In this document: positions 34,615 to 64,000 of the stretch, in pieces
How positions within the stretch are numbered: position 1 is the stretch's first letter
Layout: each line of letters starts with the position of its first letter
Source of the DNA: Artocarpus heterophyllus
Taxonomy: Eukaryota; Streptophyta; Magnoliopsida; Rosales; Moraceae
DNA: 64,000 nucleotides
NCBI GenBank assembly: GCA_025403435.1
Contig: CM046335.1
Coordinates: 3,997,101 to 4,061,100, forward strand
Direction of reading: 5' to 3'
Notes under the pieces: generated by a model
What the model saw: only the letters and a program-made list of their open reading frames with translations
Database searches by the model: none
What the model was told of the DNA's origin: nothing
Translations under genes and position numbers: made by a program

Positions 34615-37600
34615 ATGGACCTCCTTAAGCAAGAGCTTCTCAAGAAGCGCCAAAGCTTGGCCGAAGACACCGGCGGCAAGCGGTTCTTCAAGCGCTCCGA
34701 GATCGAGCAGAAGAAAATCCAGAAGCTTCGCGAGGAAGAGAAGCGCGAGTTGGAGGCCAAATCCAAGCGCCAATCCACCCCCTCCTCTGGCGCCAAGGCC
34801 TCAACGGCCAAATCAAACGCCTCCTCCTCCTCCTCCGCCGCCGCAGCCGCCGCCACCACGACCTCTTCGGCTGCAACCACATCCAAATCCTTAACGGACG
34901 AGCAGAACATTGACAACCTCGTTTTGTCCAAGCAAGAAGTAATTCGCCGCCTCCGGCTTCTGAAGCAACCAATTACTCTCTTTGGCGAAGACGATGAGTC
35001 TCGTCTCGACCGGTTGAAGTACGTGTTGAAAGCCGGGATGTTCGAGGTCGATAGCGACATGACCGAGGGACAAACGAACGATTTCCTGAGGGATATCGCG
35101 GAGCTAAGGAAGAGGCAGAAGTCTGGGATTTTGAGTGAGAGGAAGCGGCAGAAGACGGATGTCGATGGCGTGGCGGAGGATGGAGAAGGAGGCGTCGCGG
35201 AAGAGGAGTTGAGCGCCGACGGGGGATCCAGCGGGGTTGACGCCGACAAGGATTTGAAGCGGATGAAGGCGAATTTTGAGGAGCTCTGCGAGGAAGATAA
35301 AATTTTGGTGTTTTTCAAGAGGCTGTTGAATGAGTGGAACCAGGAATTGAATGAGATGCAAGAGGCAGAGAAACGGACTGCTAAAGGGAAGTCCATGGTG
35401 GCCACGTTCAAGCAGTGCGCGCGGTATTTGAATCCGCTCTTCAAGTTCTGCAGGAAGAAGGTAAAATTTCTGTTTTGATGCTTATAAGTCGTACATGCTT
35501 CTTCTGAATAACGTTTTCCTTATCCAGAACTTGCTAAATAATCATTCCTCTATTCTTCTATATTAATGAAGTTCTCGAAACTCAGTACGTATAAGCTCTG
35601 GTAAACGTATTCCAGTGTGTCCGTGTTGTATATTGACCTTGTCACTGGCCTTTCTGTGATTGAAAAAAGCTCGTTTTATATTATAATGGTCTAGAACTAT
35701 TGAGGGTCGATAGAATGTCTTGAAAATTAGGTTATGTTGGTTTTGGGATACAATGTAGCCAATGTTAGGTGAATACTGAATTGGGAAAGAATTTCAATTT
35801 CAAAGTCAGCCCGTTTACTGGTGGTCGTTTTTAATCTCCACTGACATCTTTTAGCTTAGGTTGATTCTTGGAAGCTACAAAAAATCAATCTGTTTTCACA
35901 TGTTATTCGTAATTGAACAACCTAGAACTACGTGGACCATGGGGTATAGAATGTGTTATTAAGAGCATAAGGTACTATAAAAATCTTTAGCTGTTTGGCA
36001 CTTTCCATAATTACAACATTTTCCTTTGTGTTGTGTCTAAAATCTCCAAACTGGTTAATAGTCGTGTAGTAGTTTATGTTTTTGGTTTCACTTGTATATG
36101 ACCCTGCAAAATGTTGTCGGTTTAGATTTTGGAAATTCAAGGACACCACTGGAAGTGTGGTTGAATATGTGGATTATGCTCGAGATTTAGACAGTCCTTG
36201 ATAGGGAGGTTGGGGAGGTTTTTTTGTTTTGGGGGTGGGGAGTGGGGGTTCAATCACACTTAATTTTAATTTTTATTTATAGAACAAAAGATGTATATCA
36301 TGTACTAATTCTTAGTTTTATTATTATTTTTCAAGAAAAAGGTCCTTGACATGGTATATTTTTACTTTTTGTGGATTTACTATTATTCGTAAGGCAACAC
36401 TATAATAAATTGTTGCCTTATCAACCATTGAAGTAGAGTACATTGCGGTAATGGGAGTGTTCTTTCATTACCAAGGTGGAGATTTGTTATGTGGCTATAA
36501 TAAAGCCACATGCGTACTTTAAAAACAAGTTACGTTTGTAGCAAGTAAAAGAAGTCACTTTGTGGCTTTTAGGCCATCAACTAAATAAAGGCCACTTTGA
36601 CCTTTTGGATTCCTTCAAAGACTGGCTATTGATATGGAGATACTAAATGGATAATATAGACTAAACACAGAAAAGACCTAGAGATTTAACATAGTTTAGC
36701 TATTAGCCTATTTACATGGTTAAAAGTCATGAAAAAATTTCTACTATGTAAAAGTTGAATTATGCAAAGAGTTAGTGGCTTACAATTCCTCACACAAAAT
36801 CCACATGCAGCAAAGAGCATTTTTAGCTGAATTCGCTTTACATCCAAACTCCCTACTTATAAACCAAAACTCAGAGTGTATAACTCAATTGGTTGTCCTT
36901 CCAAAGCTGAAGTGTAAAGCTATTTATAGTATAAGGCGATGGCCTTTAAACGGATCCAAAAGGACAAGTTGTCTTTATTTAGTCTATGAGCCAAAAGCCA
37001 CAAAAAATGCCTTCTTTTATTTGCCAAAAATGTGGCTTCTCTTGAGAGCTACACAAGTGACCTTCATAAAAGGCACACGACACATATTCATCTTGGCAAT
37101 AAGGAGCACTCTCACAGTTCTTCTCCTGCTGCTCTCTCATTATGCTCGCTGGGCCTATATGTTTTGTACTTTAATAAGCTCAGAGAACGATGAACATGCT
37201 TATTGGAACTGGTTTGTTGACCAGGTTGGTTGGTTTATCCATTGTGGCAATCTTCTTAAGTTTGATAACACTGTGTTATCACATCCATGATAAAGTGCAT
37301 CCTGACATCAATGTGTTTGGTAATGATCCTTTCATGATACATTTGATTCTAGGTCAAATGGATGGCACTTTGGTTGTTAGTATAGATTGTCATTTCTGTT
37401 TATGGTAACCCCACCTCTTGAACTGAAGCCCAAATATCTTCTTTCACCGATTTGGTTGTTCCAATGTGCTATATCTTGCAACAATCGATTGCAGTGATGC
37501 CTTCTAATTAATAATGCATTCACAAAGAGTGAAAACATATCTTGTCAATGACCTTCTCTTGTCTAAATCTCCAACATAATTCAAATCCACACATCCAAAA

Positions 37601-52873: not shown

Positions 52874-55800
52874 TTACATTATGGAACCAAGTCCCATCTG
52901 TACAACATGATCCTTAAATGACTTCGGTGGCATTCCTTTTGTCAGAGGATCTGCGATCATCAATTCAGTGCTTATATGCTCAATGACCACTTTATTTTCC
53001 TTAATCCGTTCCCTTATGGCTAAGTACTTAATGTCGATATGTTTACTTCGACTGCCACTCTTATTATTCTTAGCCATAAAGACAGCAGCTGAATTGTCGT
53101 AATATATCCTTAATGACCTAGACACAAAATCTACAATTCTACGGCCTGTCATGAAACCCTTCAACCATACATCATGCGAAGTAGCCTCAAAACAAGAAAC
53201 GAACTCTGCCTCCATTGTAGAAGTAGCAACCAACGTTTGCTTTCCACTCCTCCAAGATACAGCTCCTCCGGCTAGCATGAAAATATAACCTGAAGTTGAT
53301 TTTCTCGAATCAACACAGCCAGCAAAGTCTGAATCGGAGTAGCCAATCACCTCTAGAATGTCAGTTCGTCTATACATAAGCATGTAATCCTTTGTACCTT
53401 GAAGGTACCTCATCACCTTCTTTGCAGCCCTCCAGTGGTCAATGCTTGGGTTACTTTGATATCTTCCCAATATTCCCACAGCAAATGCAATGTCAGGTCT
53501 TGTGCAGACCTGAACATACATAAGGCTTCCAACAGCTGAAGCATAAGGAATGTTGCTCATTTGAACTTTCTCGAAATCACTCCTTGGACATTGATTCAAA
53601 CTAAACTTATCAGCCTTCACAATGGGTGCTACACTTGGTGGACAATCTTTCATCCGAAATCTATCTAAGACTTTATTGATATAGGTTTCCTGCGATAGTC
53701 CCAAAATGCATCGAGATCTATCCCTATGGATCTTTATGCCAATGACATAAGATGCCTCACCTATATCCTTCATATCAAAGTTCTTAGAAAGAAATTGTTT
53801 CACCTCATATAGAAACCCCTTGTCATTGGTTGCAAGAAGGATATCATCCACATATAAAACAAGGAAACAAATCTTGCTCCCACTGACCTTCTGGTATATA
53901 CATTGATCCATGATGTTCTTTTCAAAACCAAATGAAGTGATAACATCGTGGAATTTCAAATACCATTGATGGGAAGCCTGTTTCGAACCATATATGGATT
54001 TCTTGAGTTTGCACACCAATTGCTCACCATCACTAGAGGAGAATCCTTCATGTTGTTTCATATAAACCTCTTCCTCTAGATCACCATTGAGGAATGCCGT
54101 TTTCACATCCATCTGATGTAACTCAAAATCAAATGAGCTACTAATGCCATGATCACACGAAGGGAGTCCTTTTTAGATACAGGAGAAAAAGTCTCAGTGT
54201 AATCTATACCCTCCCTTTGAGTGAATCCTTTAGCAACGAGTATTGCCTTATGTCTCTCAATGTTGCCTAATGAGTCTTTCTTTGTCTTGAAGACCCATTT
54301 GCATCCAATGGCTTTTACACAGTTAGGCAACTTGACAAGATCCCAAACTCCATTAGATAACATAGAGTTCATCTCATCTTTCATGGCATCATACCACAAG
54401 TTAGATTCCTTACAACTCATGGCTTGTGAAAACATTTCTGGATCATTTTCGACTCCTATGTTGTAGTCAGACTCCTGTAAATACACAATATAGTCACTAG
54501 GAATAGTTGATCGTCGTACTCTAGTAGATCTTCTTAATGCTGGTTTAACATTCTCTTAAAGAGTATGTTGATCAACTGGCTGTTCAACAAGTTCTTGTAT
54601 CTGTTGTTCAGCTGGATCTACTGCTTCTTGATTAGCAATCTGTGGAACTTGAATGACTGGCTGTTGTTCAACACGCGTTTGAACTGTAGGCGTGTCGTGT
54701 ATAACAATCACTCTATCGTATGAAGTGGAAGCTTGAGCATCTGTATGATCTTTCTCCGGAACGGTGTTCCAGGATCTATCGCTCCCACTGATCAAGTCAT
54801 TCTCAAGAAATTTGGCATTTCTTGATTCTACAAACCTAGTAGTATGTGATGGACAATAAAATCTGTATCCCTTAGACCGTTCAGCATATCCAACGAAATA
54901 CCCACTTATGGTCCTTGGGTCTAGCTTCTTTTCTTGTGGATTATAGACTCTTACTTCAAATGGGCATCCTCAAACGCGTATATGTCGCAAACTCGGTTTC
55001 CAACCTTTCCATAACTCGAACGGTGTCTTTGAGACAGCCTTAGTTGGAACTCGGTTTAATATATACACAGTTGTCTTGAGAGCTTCAGTCCACAAAGACC
55101 TAGGAAGCTTGGAGCAGCTAAGCATGCTCCGCACCATATCCAACAATGTTTGGTTTCTTCTTTCTGCCACACCATTTTGATCTGGAGAACCGGGCATAGT
55201 GTGCTGGGCAACTATCCCATGTTCTTGAAGAAACTTCACAAATAGATCAGGCGCTTGTCTATCTTCGGTGTATCTACCATAGTATTCACCACCTCTATCA
55301 GATCTCACTATCTTTATTTGCTTACCACATTGTTTCTCTACTTCTGCCTTAAACACCTTAAAGGCATCTATAGCTTCATTTTTGTTATGAAGCAAGTAGA
55401 GATACATATATCGTGAGTAATCATCAATAAAAGTAATGAAATACTTTTGACCATACGCGTCTATGTCTGGACTACAAATATCTGTATGTATGATCTCTAA
55501 TATGTCTGAACTCCTCTTGGCACCTTTCTTTGACATATTGGTCTGCTTTCCCTTTATGCAGTCCACACAAGTGTCAAAGTCAGTAAAATCTAGAGTACTA
55601 AGTACTCCATCATTCACTAATCTCTTTATTCTCTCAATAGAGATATGACCCAATCTACGGTGCCACAACATAGAGGAATCTTCATTCATAACACATCTCT
55701 TAATGCCAGCATTATCATGAACATGCATAGAAGTATAAGAAGCTTTATCTTGTAAATTAATTTTGAAAAGACCATTTGACAATATACAATTTCTAATAAG

Positions 55801-56441
55801 TTCAGATCTATAAAACAAACTAAATATAGTATCCAAAAAATTAAAGGAAAATTCCAACGGTACAAGCCTTGAAATTGAAATTAAATTCCTAGAAAAACTA
55901 GGAATATAAAATGTCTTTTCTAACTTTAAAACATAACCACTAGATAAAACTAAATTGCATGTTCCGACAGCCTCAACACGTGAGCGCATCTTGTTGCCTG
56001 AATAGATGCACTGCTAACTTCTCATTGGCTTCCTTAGGCCTTGCAATCCCTTTTTTGTCAAGCCATTTCTGATATTTAGGACAATCCTTCTTTATGTACC
56101 CCTTCTTTTTGCAAAAGAAGCACCTGGATTCATTCTTGATATTAGCTTGAGCAGGCAGTTTGCCTTTTCCCTTATTCTTGGCTTGGCCCTTGTTCTTCCT
56201 TTGAGTTGCCAGATGCACACTCTTTCCCGCTTCCATAATAAGCCTTCCTTCCTCCTGAACACACATGGTCATCAATTCATTGATGAACCACTTATCCTTA
56301 TGTGTGTTGTAGGATATCTTGAAAGGTCCATATTGATGTGGAAGAGTGTTGAGGATGTAGTGCACAATGAAGATTTTAGACATCTCAACCTCAAGTGTCT
56401 TCAGCTGAGCCGCTATATCCCTCATTTGCATGATGTGCTCA
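52874..56441 (-). pseudogene. Ty1/copia gag-pol, protease deleted and otherwise broken, cut by a later insertion
   Basis: Order on the minus strand: partial gag (56441-55973) with a CCHC-type knuckle, CFFCKKKGYIKKDC, whose His is Tyr; then, without the protease, the GAG-pre-integrase HRRLGH...CVDC zinc site and integrase core (55989-54970, with [16 protein letters not shown] and [13 protein letters not shown]); integrase C-terminus (to 54556); reverse transcriptase (54486-54103, continuing from 54112 in another frame) with LYVDDILLA; and RNase H (STMEAEFVSC) to 52874. Breaks: a Trp-to-stop change at 54972-54970, a stop at about 54558-54556, a one-base deletion near 54120, and loss of the protease between gag and position 55989. 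The N-terminal part of gag lies beyond the inserted element, outside the window. It cannot be autonomous. Confidence 0.9.
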
Positions 56442-58420
56442 TGTGACACCCGTTATTCTCCTAACGGGTATTGAGGTAATTAAATTAATTTTTAATGTAT
56501 AAAAAAAAATTGCTTCATTTAAATTTATTTTATAATATTTATTTTTATCTATTTTTAAGTTTTCTAAAATTCTCCTATATTTATTTAGTATGATTACTAA
56601 AAAGCCTTAGAACTTCTAATAAATCTCAAAAATGTCATATTGGCATTATGTGTGTTAAAGTCTTTAGATGAGACATAAGGATATCTTTTCCAACTACTCT
56701 TGACCCTCATTTTCTTTATTTCCTCCGTGACATGCTTCAACATGTCTCCTCTATAATTGTTTCCATCACTTCTCTTCAAAGACTTCATCTTTTCTTCCTT
56801 TCTCTTCCACGGTTCCCACACTCTTCTTCTCATTTCTTTGCTGAAGCAAAATACTTAGAGAACTTCTTCAAGGCAGCCATAAAAATCAGCCACCATCACC
56901 TCCATTTGAGCAAGAATTTCAGTCATACCGAAGTAAAGGAACCTGTTTTGAAGCCATTTCAAGCTTCCAACTAACCATAATCCGAGGTTAGAATCTTATG
57001 AACAAATTTAGTCTTTCATTTATAAATTTTCTTTTATACTAAAGGATTATTCAAATTTGCGTTCTTAAACCTAAGTATATGTTTGTTGCTATTTTGGAGC
57101 ATATGTATGAAGTCTAAGTGTATATGCCCTAGACAGAAAATTTATATTGTTAAACTTTATAATACCTCTATGGGCAGTGGTTATTTCTTGAAATTCTAAG
57201 ATAGGTTTACACATGATTTATTTATGAATGTAGTTGTATGTTGTGCTTTAGTTTTAATTGTCCTTATGCACGCCTTAGGATCAAGGGAGTATGGAGCTAA
57301 CGTTAATTGATTCCAGGATTAAGAGACTGTTGATAAGCTTAAAAGGTAGGGATTCTATTACTCATCTTTTGTGAGGTTTTTATAGAATTAAAATTGATTG
57401 TTTTGCCGCAATATATATATATATCTATGTTGAACTGATATTATATGATTATCACATATGAAACTATGACATGGACTCGTCTTGTATTGTACGGCGAGGA
57501 ACATAATGAATTGACACATGTTATAAATTGAGAAGCATGGTTAGGAAAACTAACTCTATTGATAATGATTCAATATAGAGAAATTGTGAGACATGAAGAG
57601 GGCGACGGTTACGTCCTTGGGCATGAATACCCTAAAAGGTAAAATAGGGGGAAGGCGATGACGCTTCCTTGGGTTGAAAGTCCCAGAACACACTGTACAG
57701 GAATCGATTTGGTGAGGACTCGGGGCTTGATGTCCCCTCACCGGAACACCCTTGGAATGTTTATAGGGTGATCAAGTGCGCCCATTTGGGTTTCGATGAG
57801 TTGAGTGATACTCAATTTAACATGGATACCTAGGAACAATGATGATTGGTAATATTTGTATAAATGTGTAATTATGACACTTGGTAATGATTAACTACGG
57901 TATCCATAAGATGTGATCATAATAAACCTCATAATCTGGAATATGATGTAACTTACTAACCATGCAGTTTTTAATGTGGTAATGATAAAAACCTAAAGGT
58001 GAGTAATGGCTTTCTCTACTGAGCATAGTATTGCTCATACCCTTATGTTTATATCTTTTCAGGACTCACTAAGTGTGAGGTGGCTACGAGAAATATAGTT
58101 GAGGAAGCGATGTAACTATATTACATTGGGACTGCTCAATTGTAAAGAATGTTCTTCATGATAATGTAAGCATCAATTGTTACTTTCTGTGACTGTAATT
58201 ATAATGTGTTGAGGGTTAAAATGATGATGACAACAGTTTATATTATTAAATTTAAGGTGCTACATTAAAACTGTGGTTTATTTATCGTTTATATTTTTAT
58301 TTTTGAGTTGAGAGTTTTCATTTAAGTCCCGGGCAAATTTTATTTTTAAGGTTTTACTTTTATTATTTATTTTTATTTTATCTCATTAAAAACTGTTAAC
58401 CCCCATATAGGGGCGTTACA
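56442..58420 (+). repeat. 5' LTR of the LOG-carrying element (1979 bp)
   Basis: Starts TGTGACACCCGTTATTCTCC and ends ATATAGGGGCGTTACA. It contains the ACTGAGCATAGTATTGCTCAT stretch (58019-58039) also found, in varied form, in the other large LTRs of the window. Over its first 1322 bases I saw no difference from the 3' copy at 62679-64000. Reading frames inside (for example 56597-56833 and 56732-56974) appear in both LTRs and are not genes. Confidence 0.95.
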
Positions 58421-58427
58421 GAATTTT

Positions 58428-58445
58428 TGGTATCAGAGCCTAGGT
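58428..58445 (+). other. Primer binding site for initiator tRNA-Met
   Basis: TGGTATCAGAGCCTAGGTT starts 7 bp after the LTR end. It is complementary to the 3' end of plant initiator tRNA-Met, the usual primer of Ty3/gypsy and many copia elements. It shows where reverse transcription starts and fixes the 5' LTR boundary. Confidence 0.9.
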
Positions 58446-59907
58446 TCGGTTAACCTAGGGAGTGTAGCACCACTTTAAAAAAATATATTTTTGAGATGGT
58501 TTTGAAGCTGAATTTTCATTGTCATCATCAAAATGAACCTTCACATTGATTTATACAGTCTAGAAGGATGTAACATGGAAAGGCCATAGAATGAAAATAT
58601 CAATAGTTATATGAGTACAATAATTATATAGAAGGAAAGTATTAATAGTTATAAGGGAATGATAATTATATGGAATGAGTTTATAAGTAGCATGCTTATG
58701 AGAGATTCGTATAATATTTGGATCTATAAGCATATCTAATTCGTATAAACGATGAGAAATTCGTATAGATACGAGGATTTAAAAGCCTTTTGTCTCGTGA
58801 AAAACAATAAGAAATATAAGGCTTGATTTATTGATTTTAAAGTTTGACATAGATATGCCAAATTTTTCGTAATTGATTCAAACCTAAGTAATGATTATGT
58901 GTGGATTCGATGGAGCACATAAGTGTCAATGTCTTTTCTTAAAAGTTCTATATATTTGAGGAATATGATATAAGTTGGGAATCATGGTATTGAATCTTGA
59001 GAGAGATAAATGTCAGACTTTTGGTCTGTTGAGACTGTGTAAAGTCTAGAATGCATGAATCTCAAAATTGGAATATTTTGTTACGTACATTGTATTTAAG
59101 TGTATCAGTGAATCTTTTGGTTACCTAAGATTTTGTTATATGAGGAAATTATATATTGTATGAGTAGAATTGTGGGGATTGTAGATGTTCTTAAGTAGTA
59201 ACATCAAGTGTCTTTGTTCGTTGATATGGTCTACGTTGAAAGACGTAAATCGTATTGATTTCAAGGTTAGTCGCATTCTAAACCCTTGGTAGTAATGATG
59301 ATGAATCCATTGATAGATGTTGAGTATTAGGAATAACATATGGGTGTATGCATTGTTCAATAAGGTTTTGATTAAAACAAAATTATTTGAGTTGCTGGAA
59401 GATTATGTTGTTATGAAATGATTTTAAATATCATTCAGGAAGATCCTTGTTGTCGTTAAATTAGATTTGTTGTTCATAGTTAACTTTATCTATAGTGGGC
59501 TTTAAATTGGGTTTAAGATTTATACAAATTGGTTTTCAATTTTATGTTTGTTATTTAACTCGTTCTAAATGTGTTAAGGCCCGAAACAACCTGACCATTT
59601 TCAACTAAGAACATTTGGGCCTAGTTTAAATCCTAAATCAGTTTGATTCATACTGTCTCTCCCACGTGGTCTCTATACGTGTCATATACAGTGGTTTAAT
59701 TAATGTTTACAAATACGTTTACTGTGCATAGGAGCTTATTTCTCCGAGTTCACTTTTTCTCTCTTAATTTGTTATTTTCTCTAAATCGCAAATCCTCTTC
59801 TTTTTCATTAAAAATTCTTCTTTTCCTCCAAAAGAAGAAGGAATTCTAGGATTCTGCAATTTACTATCTTAATTTTTCCTTTCTATTTACTCTTCTTTCA
59901 TCTCATC
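58446..59907 (+). other. Internal leader of the LOG-carrying element
   Basis: No coding homology; gag is absent. The last 200 bp (about 59700-59907) are pyrimidine-rich with CTCTTCTTTC-type runs, like a plant 5' leader, and run straight into the start of the first reading frame. They may have been captured with it. Confidence 0.6.
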
Positions 59908-60429
59908 ATGGACCCAAAGTACCAACATCTGAGAAAGTATTTCCCATCACTCTCCCAAAAGATTCTCAGAAAGAAATACAAGGCTAGAATTACTCGGTTG
60001 TGGATTCTTATGCATTTTGGCATCCCTTGTGATGTGAGAATGTTGATAGAGGGGAAAATCCGTCCGAGTGACTTTAGTCAAGATGTCGGTTTACCAGGAA
60101 CGGGTACCAGTCGTAGTGCAATGAAAAGAAGAGCTCGTGCTATCGTGGTCACTTGTAACAAATGTAGAAGACAAAATTGTAACGGTAAATGTACTTCACC
60201 TGGTTATATGTCTACGAATAGAGAGGATAAAATAAGGTTTTGTAGGGATGGACTTTCAAAGGAGAACTTGGATAGCATCCATCCTCCTCTCCACGGTCAC
60301 CCTAGTGGATATGTTCAAGGAGCTATTTTTAAACTCTGGCCTAAATTTTATACAGAAAGACAACGCCTCAGGAATATGGTATTTCTAGATCCTGTTTGCC
60401 AAGCCATAAGAAAACTGGATGGGGAATAA
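59908..60429 (+). CDS. Basic cysteine-cluster protein resembling carlavirus nucleic-acid-binding protein
   Basis: An intact 173-aa frame from ATG to TAA, inside an LTR element. The N-terminal third is basic. GIPCDVRM (38-45) and a GTGTSRSA segment (64-71) lead into the arginine-rich KRRAR (73-77). This is followed by a Cys cluster, C83-x2-C86-x4-C91-x3-C95, and PGY (98-100). The same order (a GIP-DV-like helix, a Gly/Thr/Ser turn, an RRA-type basic patch, a Cys cluster, then Pro-Gly) is what I know from the small nucleic-acid-binding, silencing-suppressor proteins of carlaviruses (Betaflexiviridae, Pfam Carla_C4). The C-terminal 70 residues (IHPPLHGHPSGYVQG and on) are not recognised. The link is by eye. 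Alternatives are an unrelated zinc-binding host protein or a retroelement-specific protein. If of viral origin, it is a captured gene; no other viral gene is present. Confidence 0.6.
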   Translation: MDPKYQHLRKYFPSLSQKILRKKYKARITRLWILMHFGIPCDVRMLIEGKIRPSDFSQDVGLPGTGTSRSAMKRRARAIVVTCNKCRRQNCNGKCTSPGYMSTNREDKIRFCRDGLSKENLDSIHPPLHGHPSGYVQGAIFKLWPKFYTERQRLRNMVFLDPVCQAIRKLDGE

Positions 60430-61072
60430 GTCATCTCTCTATAAAGGTTATTTAGTCTTTACTTATTTGAAGCAGTTTTAGCTGATGTTCAACAGTTTGT
60501 GTTTTTCTTTTACTCAGAATATTTGCTTTTGTGTTTGAAATAATTGTGATTATTAGATTGATACAGTAAGTGTTAATATCTTATTTAATTTATGATTTTC
60601 TTAAATATATATATAATAAAATATATTATCTTATCAGACACGTTACATACGGTACAGTAATATGTTTGAATTTTGAAAAGCTTATCCAGATATTTCAAGA
60701 TTTGTGTCTCAAATTTCAAAAGTTCTACAGTATTTGTCGTTTATATTAAATTTCTAGACTTGGTGTATATTTGTCAAAAAGTCTACAGTTGTGTCATGAG
60801 GGTCTTCTGTCGAATTGTTCTCAATTGTCAAAAGTTATACAATTAGAGTCTAATCTTTTTCAAAAAGTGAATCGGATTTTCTGTAAACTATCAATCACCT
60901 TATCTTACTTTCTTATCCGCACAAGATTTTGTTTAAATCTTTGGATTACCTTTTCATTACCTACTCGTCTATCTCTTTAGCCCTTTTTGTATATTTCTCA
61001 TCTTTAAAAACTCATGTAGAACCCGAAGTCTAAGTGGAGCAGACATTAAGCAACCACTTCTATAAACCAAAT
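60430..61072 (+). other. Spacer between the two captured frames
   Basis: AT-rich, with no coding homology. It may hold the terminator of the first unit and the promoter or leader of the second. The in-frame TAA at 61031-61033 fixes the earliest possible LOG start, and the first ATG after it is at 61073. Confidence 0.55.
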
Positions 61073-61723
61073 ATGTCTACCTCCCAGTCCACGAAGAAAA
61101 TAAAGAATGTCTGTGTCTTTTGTGGTTCCAGCCTTGGAAAAGATAAAGCTTATTTAGAAGCTGCAAATCACTTAGGGCAAGTCCTAGCACGCAAGAAGAT
61201 TAACATAATCTATGGGGGTGGTAGTATAAAAATGATGGTAAATATGGCACTAGCAGCTAGGTCTAGTGACGCTACTGATGTAAGAATTTGGCCTCATATT
61301 CCAGTTGAAGGAAACCTTTGTAAGGAAGCCATAGGTAAGGGAGAAGGAGTCAGGAGTATCCCTAAAAATTTTAAAGACATAATCTATAATTCTGATGCTT
61401 TTATAGCATTACCTGGTGGTCTAGGTACTCTTGAGGAAATATTTATAGTTGCTTGTGGGCAATTGTTGGGCTTTTATTCCAAACCTTTGGGACTGCTGAA
61501 CGTAAAGGGTTTTTATGACGGTCTTTTGAAATTTCTAGATTACGCTGTGGAAGAAAACATCACTACAGAATCGGAGAGACAAATTTTTGTCACTGCTTCA
61601 ACAGCTGAGGAATTGATAGATAAAATGCAAATCATACATCCAGAATCCGACACTGCAACATCCAAGCTTGAATGGGAAAGGGAAAGCCGGGAGCGGCCAA
61701 TTGATTTGAATCTCCATCTGTAA
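61073..61723 (+). CDS. LOG-like: Intronless LOG-like cytokinin riboside 5'-monophosphate phosphoribohydrolase inside an LTR element
   Basis: The family cleaves cytokinin nucleotides to active free bases in the cytosol. The frame is 216 aa, close to plant LOG length. Conserved: VCVFCGSSLGKDKAYLEAA (13-31), INIIYGGGS (43-51), SDAFIALPGGLGTLEEIF (107-124) with the full PGGxGTxxE box (114-122), KPLGLLNVKGFYDGLLKFLD (137-156), VEENITTESERQIFVTAS (159-176) and KLEWE (198-202). Changed: after GGGS the usual G-L-M-G turn reads KMMV (53-56), and the QRKAEM segment just before SDAF, whose Arg-Lys lies at the active site in LOG enzymes, reads KNFKDI (98-103). Plant LOG genes normally have several introns and this has none, which fits capture from a spliced RNA. 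A GTG at 61034 would add 13 residues but is not a plausible plant start. Activity is uncertain. Confidence 0.93.
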   Translation: MSTSQSTKKIKNVCVFCGSSLGKDKAYLEAANHLGQVLARKKINIIYGGGSIKMMVNMALAARSSDATDVRIWPHIPVEGNLCKEAIGKGEGVRSIPKNFKDIIYNSDAFIALPGGLGTLEEIFIVACGQLLGFYSKPLGLLNVKGFYDGLLKFLDYAVEENITTESERQIFVTASTAEELIDKMQIIHPESDTATSKLEWERESRERPIDLNLHL

Positions 61724-62664
61724 TCTTTTTGTTTTATCTTTGGCATGTAGGCATGTGTGTCCGTATTTCGTGTGTTACGAATAACCGTTTGCCTTGTATT
61801 ATGTGTTTCTTGTGGTACGTTGTTGTTCAATCTTTTAGATTCATTGAGCCTAATGCCGGGATGGCTGGATACGGAGTACTTGATGCTCTCGAAACGCATC
61901 CTTCTTAAGGTCCGATCTTTTGTTTATCGATGTTTTTGTATCCTCTAAGCATGCATGATATGGATAGCTGGTATACGGAGTGCCTTGTACTCTCGAAACG
62001 TATCCGTATCATGTTTGTAATGTGTAATATTCTGTTAATATTATGTGGAAGTACCAGAGTCAGTTATGGGGATATTCCATATGAAATATGAGTATATTAT
62101 TTGGGTTGAATGTTTGTGTCATGAGGATAGCTGTTTAATGAAAAATATGTCGGGTATGTTTGCAACTCTAAGATTCCGTTTAATATCTCTATGAGTAAGT
62201 TTAATGTATAGTTTTGAATAAAAGTGTTTGTGATATATGTTTTATGATTATGTTTTAGTTTATTAGTTGAGGTATGAAATCAAATATATTTGACTTTTCT
62301 TTACTCAAAAAGGAAAAGGAACCTAAAGATGAAGTATATAAAATTTCTCTAGCAATCTCCTTAAATGTGATTGTAAATCACAGTCCATGGACAATGAAGG
62401 ACTGGAATCATGATATGGTCAATATGTATGCCTGATCAGATTCTTAGACTATTATACGGTGTTACAAGTTAAAACTTGTCAGAAATACTCTTATTGAGGG
62501 ATTTAGGAGTAAGATTTATTATGCAAGTAAATAAGTGGAAATACGATAACTTAAATTTGGAGGACAAACAACATTAACGGTTTAGACTCAGAATTGGAAT
62601 CATAGTGGAATCATAATTTTTACTAGTATTGCTAGAATTGAAATTTCGAGGACGAAATTTCTTT
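61724..62664 (+). other. 3' internal region of the LOG-carrying element
   Basis: Non-coding. Two related segments, near 61867-61900 and 61972-62010, share ATACGGAGT...CTCTCGAAACG(C/T)ATCC; in the second the outer bases (ATACGGAGT and CGTATCCGTAT) can pair, so a hairpin is possible. The region runs into AAATTTCGAGGACGAAATTT (62641-62660), a conserved sequence before the polypurine tract in many plant gypsy elements. Confidence 0.6.
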
Positions 62665-62678
62665 AAGGGGGGTAGAGC
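62665..62678 (+). other. Polypurine tract of the LOG-carrying element
   Basis: AAGGGGGGTAGAGC lies directly before the 3' LTR start and primes plus-strand synthesis. Together with the preceding TTCGAGGACGAAATTTC it is a mark of plant Ty3/gypsy elements, which supports the class assignment despite the missing pol gene. Confidence 0.85.
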
Positions 62679-64000
62679 TGTGACACCCGTTATTCTCCTA
62701 ACGGGTATTGAGGTAATTAAATTAATTTTTAATGTATAAAAAAAAATTGCTTCATTTAAATTTATTTTATAATATTTATTTTTATCTATTTTTAAGTTTT
62801 CTAAAATTCTCCTATATTTATTTAGTATGATTACTAAAAAGCCTTAGAACTTCTAATAAATCTCAAAAATGTCATATTGGCATTATGTGTGTTAAAGTCT
62901 TTAGATGAGACATAAGGATATCTTTTCCAACTACTCTTGACCCTCATTTTCTTTATTTCCTCCGTGACATGCTTCAACATGTCTCCTCTATAATTGTTTC
63001 CATCACTTCTCTTCAAAGACTTCATCTTTTCTTCCTTTCTCTTCCACGGTTCCCACACTCTTCTTCTCATTTCTTTGCTGAAGCAAAATACTTAGAGAAC
63101 TTCTTCAAGGCAGCCATAAAAATCAGCCACCATCACCTCCATTTGAGCAAGAATTTCAGTCATACCGAAGTAAAGGAACCTGTTTTGAAGCCATTTCAAG
63201 CTTCCAACTAACCATAATCCGAGGTTAGAATCTTATGAACAAATTTAGTCTTTCATTTATAAATTTTCTTTTATACTAAAGGATTATTCAAATTTGCGTT
63301 CTTAAACCTAAGTATATGTTTGTTGCTATTTTGGAGCATATGTATGAAGTCTAAGTGTATATGCCCTAGACAGAAAATTTATATTGTTAAACTTTATAAT
63401 ACCTCTATGGGCAGTGGTTATTTCTTGAAATTCTAAGATAGGTTTACACATGATTTATTTATGAATGTAGTTGTATGTTGTGCTTTAGTTTTAATTGTCC
63501 TTATGCACGCCTTAGGATCAAGGGAGTATGGAGCTAACGTTAATTGATTCCAGGATTAAGAGACTGTTGATAAGCTTAAAAGGTAGGGATTCTATTACTC
63601 ATCTTTTGTGAGGTTTTTATAGAATTAAAATTGATTGTTTTGCCGCAATATATATATATATCTATGTTGAACTGATATTATATGATTATCACATATGAAA
63701 CTATGACATGGACTCGTCTTGTATTGTACGGCGAGGAACATAATGAATTGACACATGTTATAAATTGAGAAGCATGGTTAGGAAAACTAACTCTATTGAT
63801 AATGATTCAATATAGAGAAATTGTGAGACATGAAGAGGGCGACGGTTACGTCCTTGGGCATGAATACCCTAAAAGGTAAAATAGGGGGAAGGCGATGACG
63901 CTTCCTTGGGTTGAAAGTCCCAGAACACACTGTACAGGAATCGATTTGGTGAGGACTCGGGGCTTGATGTCCCCTCACCGGAACACCCTTGGAATGTTTA
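62679..64000 (+). repeat. 3' LTR of the LOG-carrying element (cut by window end)
   Basis: Direct repeat of 56442-57763 at a constant offset of 6237 with no indel. The remaining 657 bp of the LTR and the right target duplication lie outside the window. Confidence 0.95.

Follow-up and report, generated by a model that had tools for sequence, protein, structure and literature searches.

A non-autonomous retrotransposon with two genes of its own

The window analysed here is a 64,000-nucleotide stretch of the Artocarpus heterophyllus genome (assembly GCA_025403435.1, contig CM046335.1, positions 3,997,101 to 4,061,100, forward strand), and its right-hand end is occupied by a complete long terminal repeat (LTR) retrotransposon that carries two intact open reading frames (ORFs). 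ORF1 encodes a cysteine-rich protein (CRP) and ORF2 a protein with the fold of the cytokinin-activating enzyme LOG. This gene pair was present at every locus examined of a high-copy family and recurs in an unrelated retroelement of the same genome, and its LOG-fold member has probably ceased to be a cytokinin enzyme.

The element is 8,216 bp long (56442-64657), of which 657 bp lie beyond the window end and were taken from the host assembly (L036; L numbers denote loci and P numbers proteins of this analysis). Comparison of the two LTRs, the second completed with this flank, gave 1,979 bp for each and no mismatch between them, and within the window 1322 of 1322 positions agree. No gag-pol was found in the interior, where the ORFs of at least 80 amino acids are ORF1, ORF2 and a 119-amino-acid frame on the minus strand (61540-61899) overlapping the end of ORF2; having no gag or pol ORF of its own, the element is non-autonomous. 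An earlier note on this DNA, made from the sequence alone, had described an LTR element with a primer-binding site, a polypurine tract, no gag-pol and two complete intronless frames, a description that the flank and the target-site duplication now complete. We assume that the element belongs to Gypsy on the strength of its primer-binding site, which we take to be of the initiator-Met tRNA type, and of its 5-bp target-site duplication, the element itself being without pol.

Table 1. Positions of the features of the window copy, and of close copy pairs elsewhere in the host assembly
Feature	Position	Strand	Remarks
Target-site duplication GCTCA, left copy	56437..56441	.	right copy past the window, after 64657
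5' LTR	56442..58420	+	1,979 bp, TGTGACACCC...GCGTTACA, same as 3' LTR
Primer-binding site	58428..58439	+	TGGTATCAGAGC, read from sequence
ORF1 (CRP)	59908..60429	+	173-aa basic Cys-cluster protein, kin of viral nucleic-acid-binding proteins; intact
ORF2, LOG-fold protein	61073..61723	+	216 aa, intronless; intact
ORF2 altered active-site segment	61358..61381	+	residues 96-103 IPKNFKDI, opposite MHQRKAEM in canonical plant LOGs; Asn99 where these have the catalytic Arg
ORF2 C-terminal tail	61703..61720	+	DLNLHL; LxLxL, EAR-type
Polypurine tract	62665..62677	+	AAGGGGGGTAGAG, read from sequence
3' LTR	62679..64000	+	cut by window end; runs on to 64657 in host assembly
Close same-strand copy pairs	C26:2082707/2089335; C1:11396525/11403139; C22:23827114/23833351; C12:5310768/5316972; C12:16953274/16959645		

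Copy number and recent activity

The 985-Mb host assembly, in which the window lies on the contig numbered C9, contains the element many times over. A DNA search with ORF1 gave 1,578 first-look candidates and at least 40 full-length places, all 40 of those scored having 99-100% identity. At the protein level (5,822 candidates) ORF1 found at least 150 full-length places, and the 150 scored were all 98-100% identical and had no internal stop. With a second CRP query, P0139, at least 150 places were recovered, most of them with a 205-amino-acid frame of the window family; by eye, about a dozen overlap with the places found by the ORF1 protein. A genome search with a LOG protein of Populus (P0020) likewise gave at least 150 places, 150 of 150 scored, which fall into several groups. 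Each match is unbroken over most of the query, showing that the LOG copies are intronless.

Three further complete copies were reconstructed on other contigs. L037 has a target-site duplication GTTTT and an LTR pair with 3 mismatches in 2362 positions, L038 has GTGAT and 0 in 2390, and L039 has TTTAT and 2 in 2349 plus 2 gap columns. Thus, all four complete copies, the window copy included, have LTRs that run from TG to CA, are identical or nearly so within the element and are flanked by a 5-bp target-site duplication of their own. The near absence of differences within the LTR pairs of L037-L039 points to recent activity. It had been a worry of the earlier note that the LTR repeat at 62679 might be an assembly duplication; the three other copies, each with its own target-site duplication and LTR pair, exclude this. 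LTRs measure 2.35-2.39 kb in L037-L039, and the 1,979-bp variant of the window is without about 0.4 kb in mid-LTR. Some same-strand copies lie 6.2-6.6 kb apart (Table 1), a spacing close to the summed length of an LTR and an interior, as would be seen in tandem elements that share an LTR.

The window copy is inserted into the gag of a Copia element lying on the minus strand (52874-56436), in which gag, gag-pre-integrase, integrase and further pol frames were found. Elsewhere in the window, a 287-amino-acid frame (34615-35478, plus strand) resembles, by eye, the splicing factor PRP18.

The two genes are inherited together

CRP and LOG were both present in all 79 loci examined, 35 of them fetched via ORF1 and 44 via LOG. 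All 35 of the ORF1-fetched loci contain the LOG ORF, intact in 32, with a stop in two (L012 and L035) and a frameshift in one (L029). The 44 LOG-fetched loci were selected from the 150 places matched by P0020 such that the groups were covered, and in 44 of 44 the CRP lies upstream of LOG. Copy number and the presence of both genes at every locus rule out chance capture in a single copy. The earlier note had said beforehand that a single-copy interior would reduce the case to such a capture; with a multi-copy interior, both frames in 79 of 79 loci and the pair present also in the separate element L043 (see below), the two genes are co-inherited cargo. Among relatives listed from other species, the longest contig is 8,723 bases both for P0149 (CRP) and for P0065 (LOG), an equal figure that suggests that the two genes share one contig, unless the agreement is a coincidence.

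ORF1 belongs to a family of virus-like cysteine-rich proteins

Searched by itself against Pfam, ORF1 matches Carla_C4 at E = 0.12 and 12.8 bits, under the family cut-off of 20.9. A profile search returned 855 CRP relatives at E <= 0.1, and the hosts named among the 120 listed include Populus, Xanthoceras, Acer, Rhamnella, Orobanche and Hibiscus. An alignment was made of the window ORF1 and 50 of 125 listed CRP proteins; among its 51 members, 48 match Carla_C4 and 45 match Viral_NABP at E <= 0.1, and cysteines 83, 86, 91 and 95, together with the basic residues preceding them, are invariant or nearly so. The likeness to carlavirus proteins proposed in the earlier note therefore holds for the family but not for ORF1 alone, whose viral resemblance is solid only through the Carla_C4 and Viral_NABP matches of its relatives. 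Scans of viral contigs found no relative. The sole PDB sequence match of ORF1, a dehydrogenase at E 0.048, was regarded as chance.

These patterns indicate that the CRP is likely a virus-like zinc-cluster protein with putative nucleic-acid binding. The CRP of the carlavirus PVM acts as a silencing suppressor, according to the part of the source used here (PMC10219291), and by analogy this provides a lead for the function of the CRP in the retroelement.

ORF2 has the LOG fold and lacks the catalytic arginine

The second frame is a LOG homologue, as the earlier note had recognised. It matches the Pfam family Lysine_decarbox (9e-22) and the sequence of Arabidopsis 2a33 (2.1e-43), and its structural model retrieves 2a33 in Foldseek (1.8e-16); the model has a pLDDT of 74, with low values at residues 74-83 and 89-95 and in the tail. 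ORF2 thus combines the LOG fold with the PGGxGTxxE motif, kept as PGGLGTLEE. For CgLOG, Arg99 and Glu122 have been proposed to be catalytic, the prenyl site is described with Met96, His97, Lys100 and Trp129, and replacing the crucial residues by alanine left hardly any activity (PMC4979012, as far as the portion used here reports).

In the alignment with canonical plant LOGs, the Arg is replaced in ORF2 by Asn, and the Met, His, Lys and Trp by Ile, Pro, Phe and Gly, respectively. At the position of CgLOG Arg99, every one of the 59 window-lineage copies (L001-L035, L042, L058 and L063-L084) has Asn. The catalytic Arg is kept in 20 of 20 copies of other lineages, among which L062 is frame-shifted at that point and was read in register, and in 112 of the 120 relatives listed out of 5,291. 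Taken together, these residues suggest that the window ORF2 is probably no cytokinin enzyme, and the hormone-activating role that the earlier note had given it is not borne out for the window copy. The Lys beside the catalytic Arg is kept in only 16 of the 120 listed relatives. A tree of 41 of these relatives sets the canonical plant LOGs apart as a long-stemmed group and gives ORF2 a very long branch (1.32) whose placement is not firm.

The C-terminus of ORF2 ends in an LxLxL tail. LxLxL is an EAR motif, which recruits TOPLESS. The tail was found in 58 of the 59 window-lineage copies (L081 ends in M) and in 87 of the 120 relatives listed. If the motif is defined as a conserved LxLxL, the window lineage has it and the L043 group does not have it in strict form. 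Many annotated plant LOG/LOGL10 proteins, of Populus and other plants (among P0019-P0129), also have an LxLxL tail.

The gene pair recurs in an unrelated retroelement

The CRP and LOG pair is also present in L043, a retroelement unrelated to the window element. The two elements have no LTR or non-coding similarity and align only over the two ORFs, at 66-70% DNA identity and at 54% (CRP) and 51% (LOG) protein identity. L043 contains, in order, Retrotrans_gag (4.4e-9), an aspartyl protease (2.1e-6), CRP and LOG, with a purine tract behind LOG, and its primer-binding site, TGGCGCCGTT, differs from that of the window element. Within the 10 kb examined no reverse transcriptase or integrase was seen in L043, whose LTRs lie only partly within the fetched stretch. 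A scan of genome contigs with the CRP alignment gave one locus, L040 (DAIEQH010000041.1), filed under a Candidatus Nomurabacteria metagenome-assembled genome; the combination of a plant-type Gypsy integrase with the CRP makes it look like misbinned plant DNA. Here a Gypsy integrase (rve 2.3e-16) is followed by CRP and then by a purine tract, and the ORF list shows no LOG. The L040 CRP matches Viral_NABP at 3.3e-8 and 34.2 bits, over the cut-off of 23, and Carla_C4 at 19.8 bits, just under 20.9. From primer-binding site, gag and polypurine tract we take L043 and L040 to be Athila-like.

The position of the CRP beside the integrase in L040 suggests, as the simplest history, that the CRP came first and would have been placed behind pol in Athila-type Gypsy elements. 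A LOG gene may then have been added behind the CRP, as in L043, and the cassette would later have been taken up by an element with other LTRs and another primer-binding site that had dropped gag-pol, and which then expanded. In the comparison of the window element with L041, LOG is the most diverged part (16-29%, with 4-9% upstream and about 12% downstream). Such excess divergence suggests recombination around LOG, or that element lineages have exchanged the LOG module. Taking L041 and L044 together, the LOG segment 61073-61723 differs from the window by 13-29% and its 5' neighbourhood by 4-12%.

Constraint on the two frames

Selection was assessed by pairwise tests, in which counts of nonsynonymous (N) and synonymous (S) changes were set against the non-coding mutation spectrum, by codon models and by neutral simulation. 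Between the window and L041, the CRP has N 9 and S 16 (P = 2e-4) and LOG has N 85.5 and S 48.5 (P = 0.065). A codon model of LOG in the window copy and 24 older copies of its lineage (n = 25, Arg absent) gave omega 0.64 (p = 0.0013), a value biased toward constraint by the choice of these copies for LOG similarity. With L062 excluded, the remaining six of seven L041-type copies gave omega 0.53 for LOG (p = 0.0003) and 0.51 for CRP (p = 0.0006). In simulations of neutral change, 1 of 300 ORF2 runs was still without a stop at 48% identity, as were 8 of 300 ORF1 runs at 60% identity. The very low omega of ORF1 in L009-L035 (0.027; N 3, S 25) was not used as evidence of selection, since those copies had been chosen by ORF1 protein similarity. 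With the weaker values given in the next section, the pairwise tests, codon models and simulation together show a constraint that can be seen over long spans of time and is no more than modest inside the young family. As a whole the signs of selection are modest and in part biased by the way in which copies were sampled.

Proposed function and alternatives

The reading that we prefer, tentatively and with a little less than even confidence, is of a high-copy LTR element without gag-pol, likely moved in trans, with a cassette of the CRP and an Arg-less LOG that is likely an EAR-tailed co-repressor adaptor. The window element would be moved by the proteins of another element. The CRP would bind nucleic acid and possibly suppress silencing, and the LOG-fold protein, its enzyme function lost, would recruit TOPLESS-type co-repressors through its LxLxL tail. 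A further proposal, which we regard as rather doubtful, is that the pair constitutes a mobile host-manipulation cassette passed between unrelated LTR lineages, the dead-enzyme form of which rode one of the large element bursts in this genome.

Several results weigh against the preferred reading. ORF2 retains PGGLGTLEE and the Glu of the LOG motif, such that it may still bind nucleotides to some degree, and the predicted structure of ORF1 is poor (pLDDT 66). Outside the window lineage the tail is less regular: in the L043 group it reads DLSL, not LxLxL, in 10 of 11 copies (one is frame-shifted), and the seven L041-type copies have LNLSM in three, LNLSL in two and unreadable ends in two. Frame by frame, the first 24 of the 44 LOG-fetched loci have a whole LOG in 17 and a whole CRP in only 10, although fetching loci by a LOG match biases toward whole LOG frames. 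The tests of the window against L042 gave P = 0.073 (CRP) and 0.055 (LOG). Finally, LOG in the 35 CRP-fetched copies, a sample with no same-gene selection bias, has omega 0.685 (p = 0.16), and CRP in the 25 LOG-picked copies has omega 0.753 (p = 0.056).

Omegas near 0.65-0.75 in samples not picked by the same gene, the loss of the catalytic Arg and the CRP broken in 14 of 24 LOG-fetched loci are what would be expected if the cargo were a passive passenger, with the expansion unrelated to it and both ORFs the slowly decaying remnants of genes useful in older autonomous elements. We consider this unlikely: most young copies still have both frames open (LOG in 32 of 35), the CRP is constrained between the window and L041, both genes are constrained in the six L041-type copies, and stop-free frames lasting so long are improbable in the neutral simulation.

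A still less likely explanation leaves the host unaffected and assigns the cassette to packaging or to RNA chaperoning, the CRP, perhaps together with a dimer of the LOG fold as scaffold, binding the element's RNA and helping it to use the particles of another element. The basic run and Cys cluster of the CRP would suit such a role in an element without gag, the CRP comes after the integrase in L040, and a chaperone role has been suggested for env-like products of plant elements in the part of PMC7264820 used here. However, L043 has the CRP alongside a gag domain that itself weakly matches zinc knuckles, showing that the CRP is no simple replacement of gag, and the LxLxL tail is not known to have a role in packaging. 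That ORF2 still activates cytokinins and the element profits from more dividing cells, as the earlier note had proposed, is very improbable for the window family, in which Asn has replaced the catalytic Arg in every copy, the prenyl-site residues of the window protein are exchanged and alanine at crucial residues nearly abolishes CgLOG activity (PMC4979012, same portion), even though LOG fold and PGGLGTLEE are retained and the proposal may hold for the other retroelement LOG lineages with Arg in 20 of 20 copies.

The expanding lineage is one in which the catalytic residue was lost and a tail that could recruit a repressor was kept. Retroviruses have accessory genes with which they manage their hosts. 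The presence of a gene pair, rather than a lone captured gene, in diverged element families provides a testable case for accessory genes in plant retrotransposons. It also carries a warning for annotation: some annotated plant LOG/LOGL10 proteins may, judging by their sequences, be products of transposon genes rather than hormone genes, and many intronless 'LOG' genes of plant genomes may not be cytokinin enzymes.

Relation to known systems

A LOG domain in plant Gypsy elements is already known, which in part qualifies the statement of the earlier note that it knew of no described family pairing a hormone-activating enzyme with a putative silencing suppressor. LOG/YgdH domains have been reported in Gypsy elements of Citrus sinensis, C. 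clementina and Populus trichocarpa (Alvarado-Marchena et al. 2022, PMC9289625), where Steinbauerova et al. 2011 are credited for them. These elements resemble the window element in having a LOG-type domain as an extra gene; they were located via a reverse-transcriptase marker and hence have pol, whereas the window element has none, and the part of that account used here mentions no CRP partner, gag-pol-less derivative, catalytic loss or LxLxL tail. In the open-access literature searched, neither the cassette of two genes nor its CRP partner, its missing Arg or its LxLxL tail was found to have been reported, and the two-gene cassette with an Arg-less LOG may be new.

The same source (PMC9289625, same part) describes Phalaenopsis Gypsy elements with an AlkB m6A demethylase; here, too, a domain of host-enzyme type has become fixed within a single lineage of plant Gypsy elements, and it has been proposed to counter host control. 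They differ in having a single extra gene in an element of 25 kb, and in that their enzyme has been shown to work in vitro. In other plant LTR elements additional ORFs, the env-like genes of Athila among them, stand downstream of pol and ahead of the 3' LTR, and the CRP behind the integrase in L040 has a like position; the portion of the source used here (PMC7264820) mentions no viral nucleic-acid-binding or LOG protein among them, and the window element is without any pol. The carlavirus cysteine-rich proteins (Carla_C4/Viral_NABP) share with the CRP a Cys cluster after a basic run and the family-level Pfam matches. In contrast to them, the retroelement proteins are about 180 amino acids long, their conservation extends past the Cys cluster, and ORF1 itself falls under the Pfam cut-off. 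LARD-type elements are non-autonomous LTR elements with a long non-coding interior and no gag-pol. The window element is like them in its LTRs, primer-binding site and polypurine tract around a long interior without gag-pol, but where LARDs are non-coding its interior holds two intact genes.

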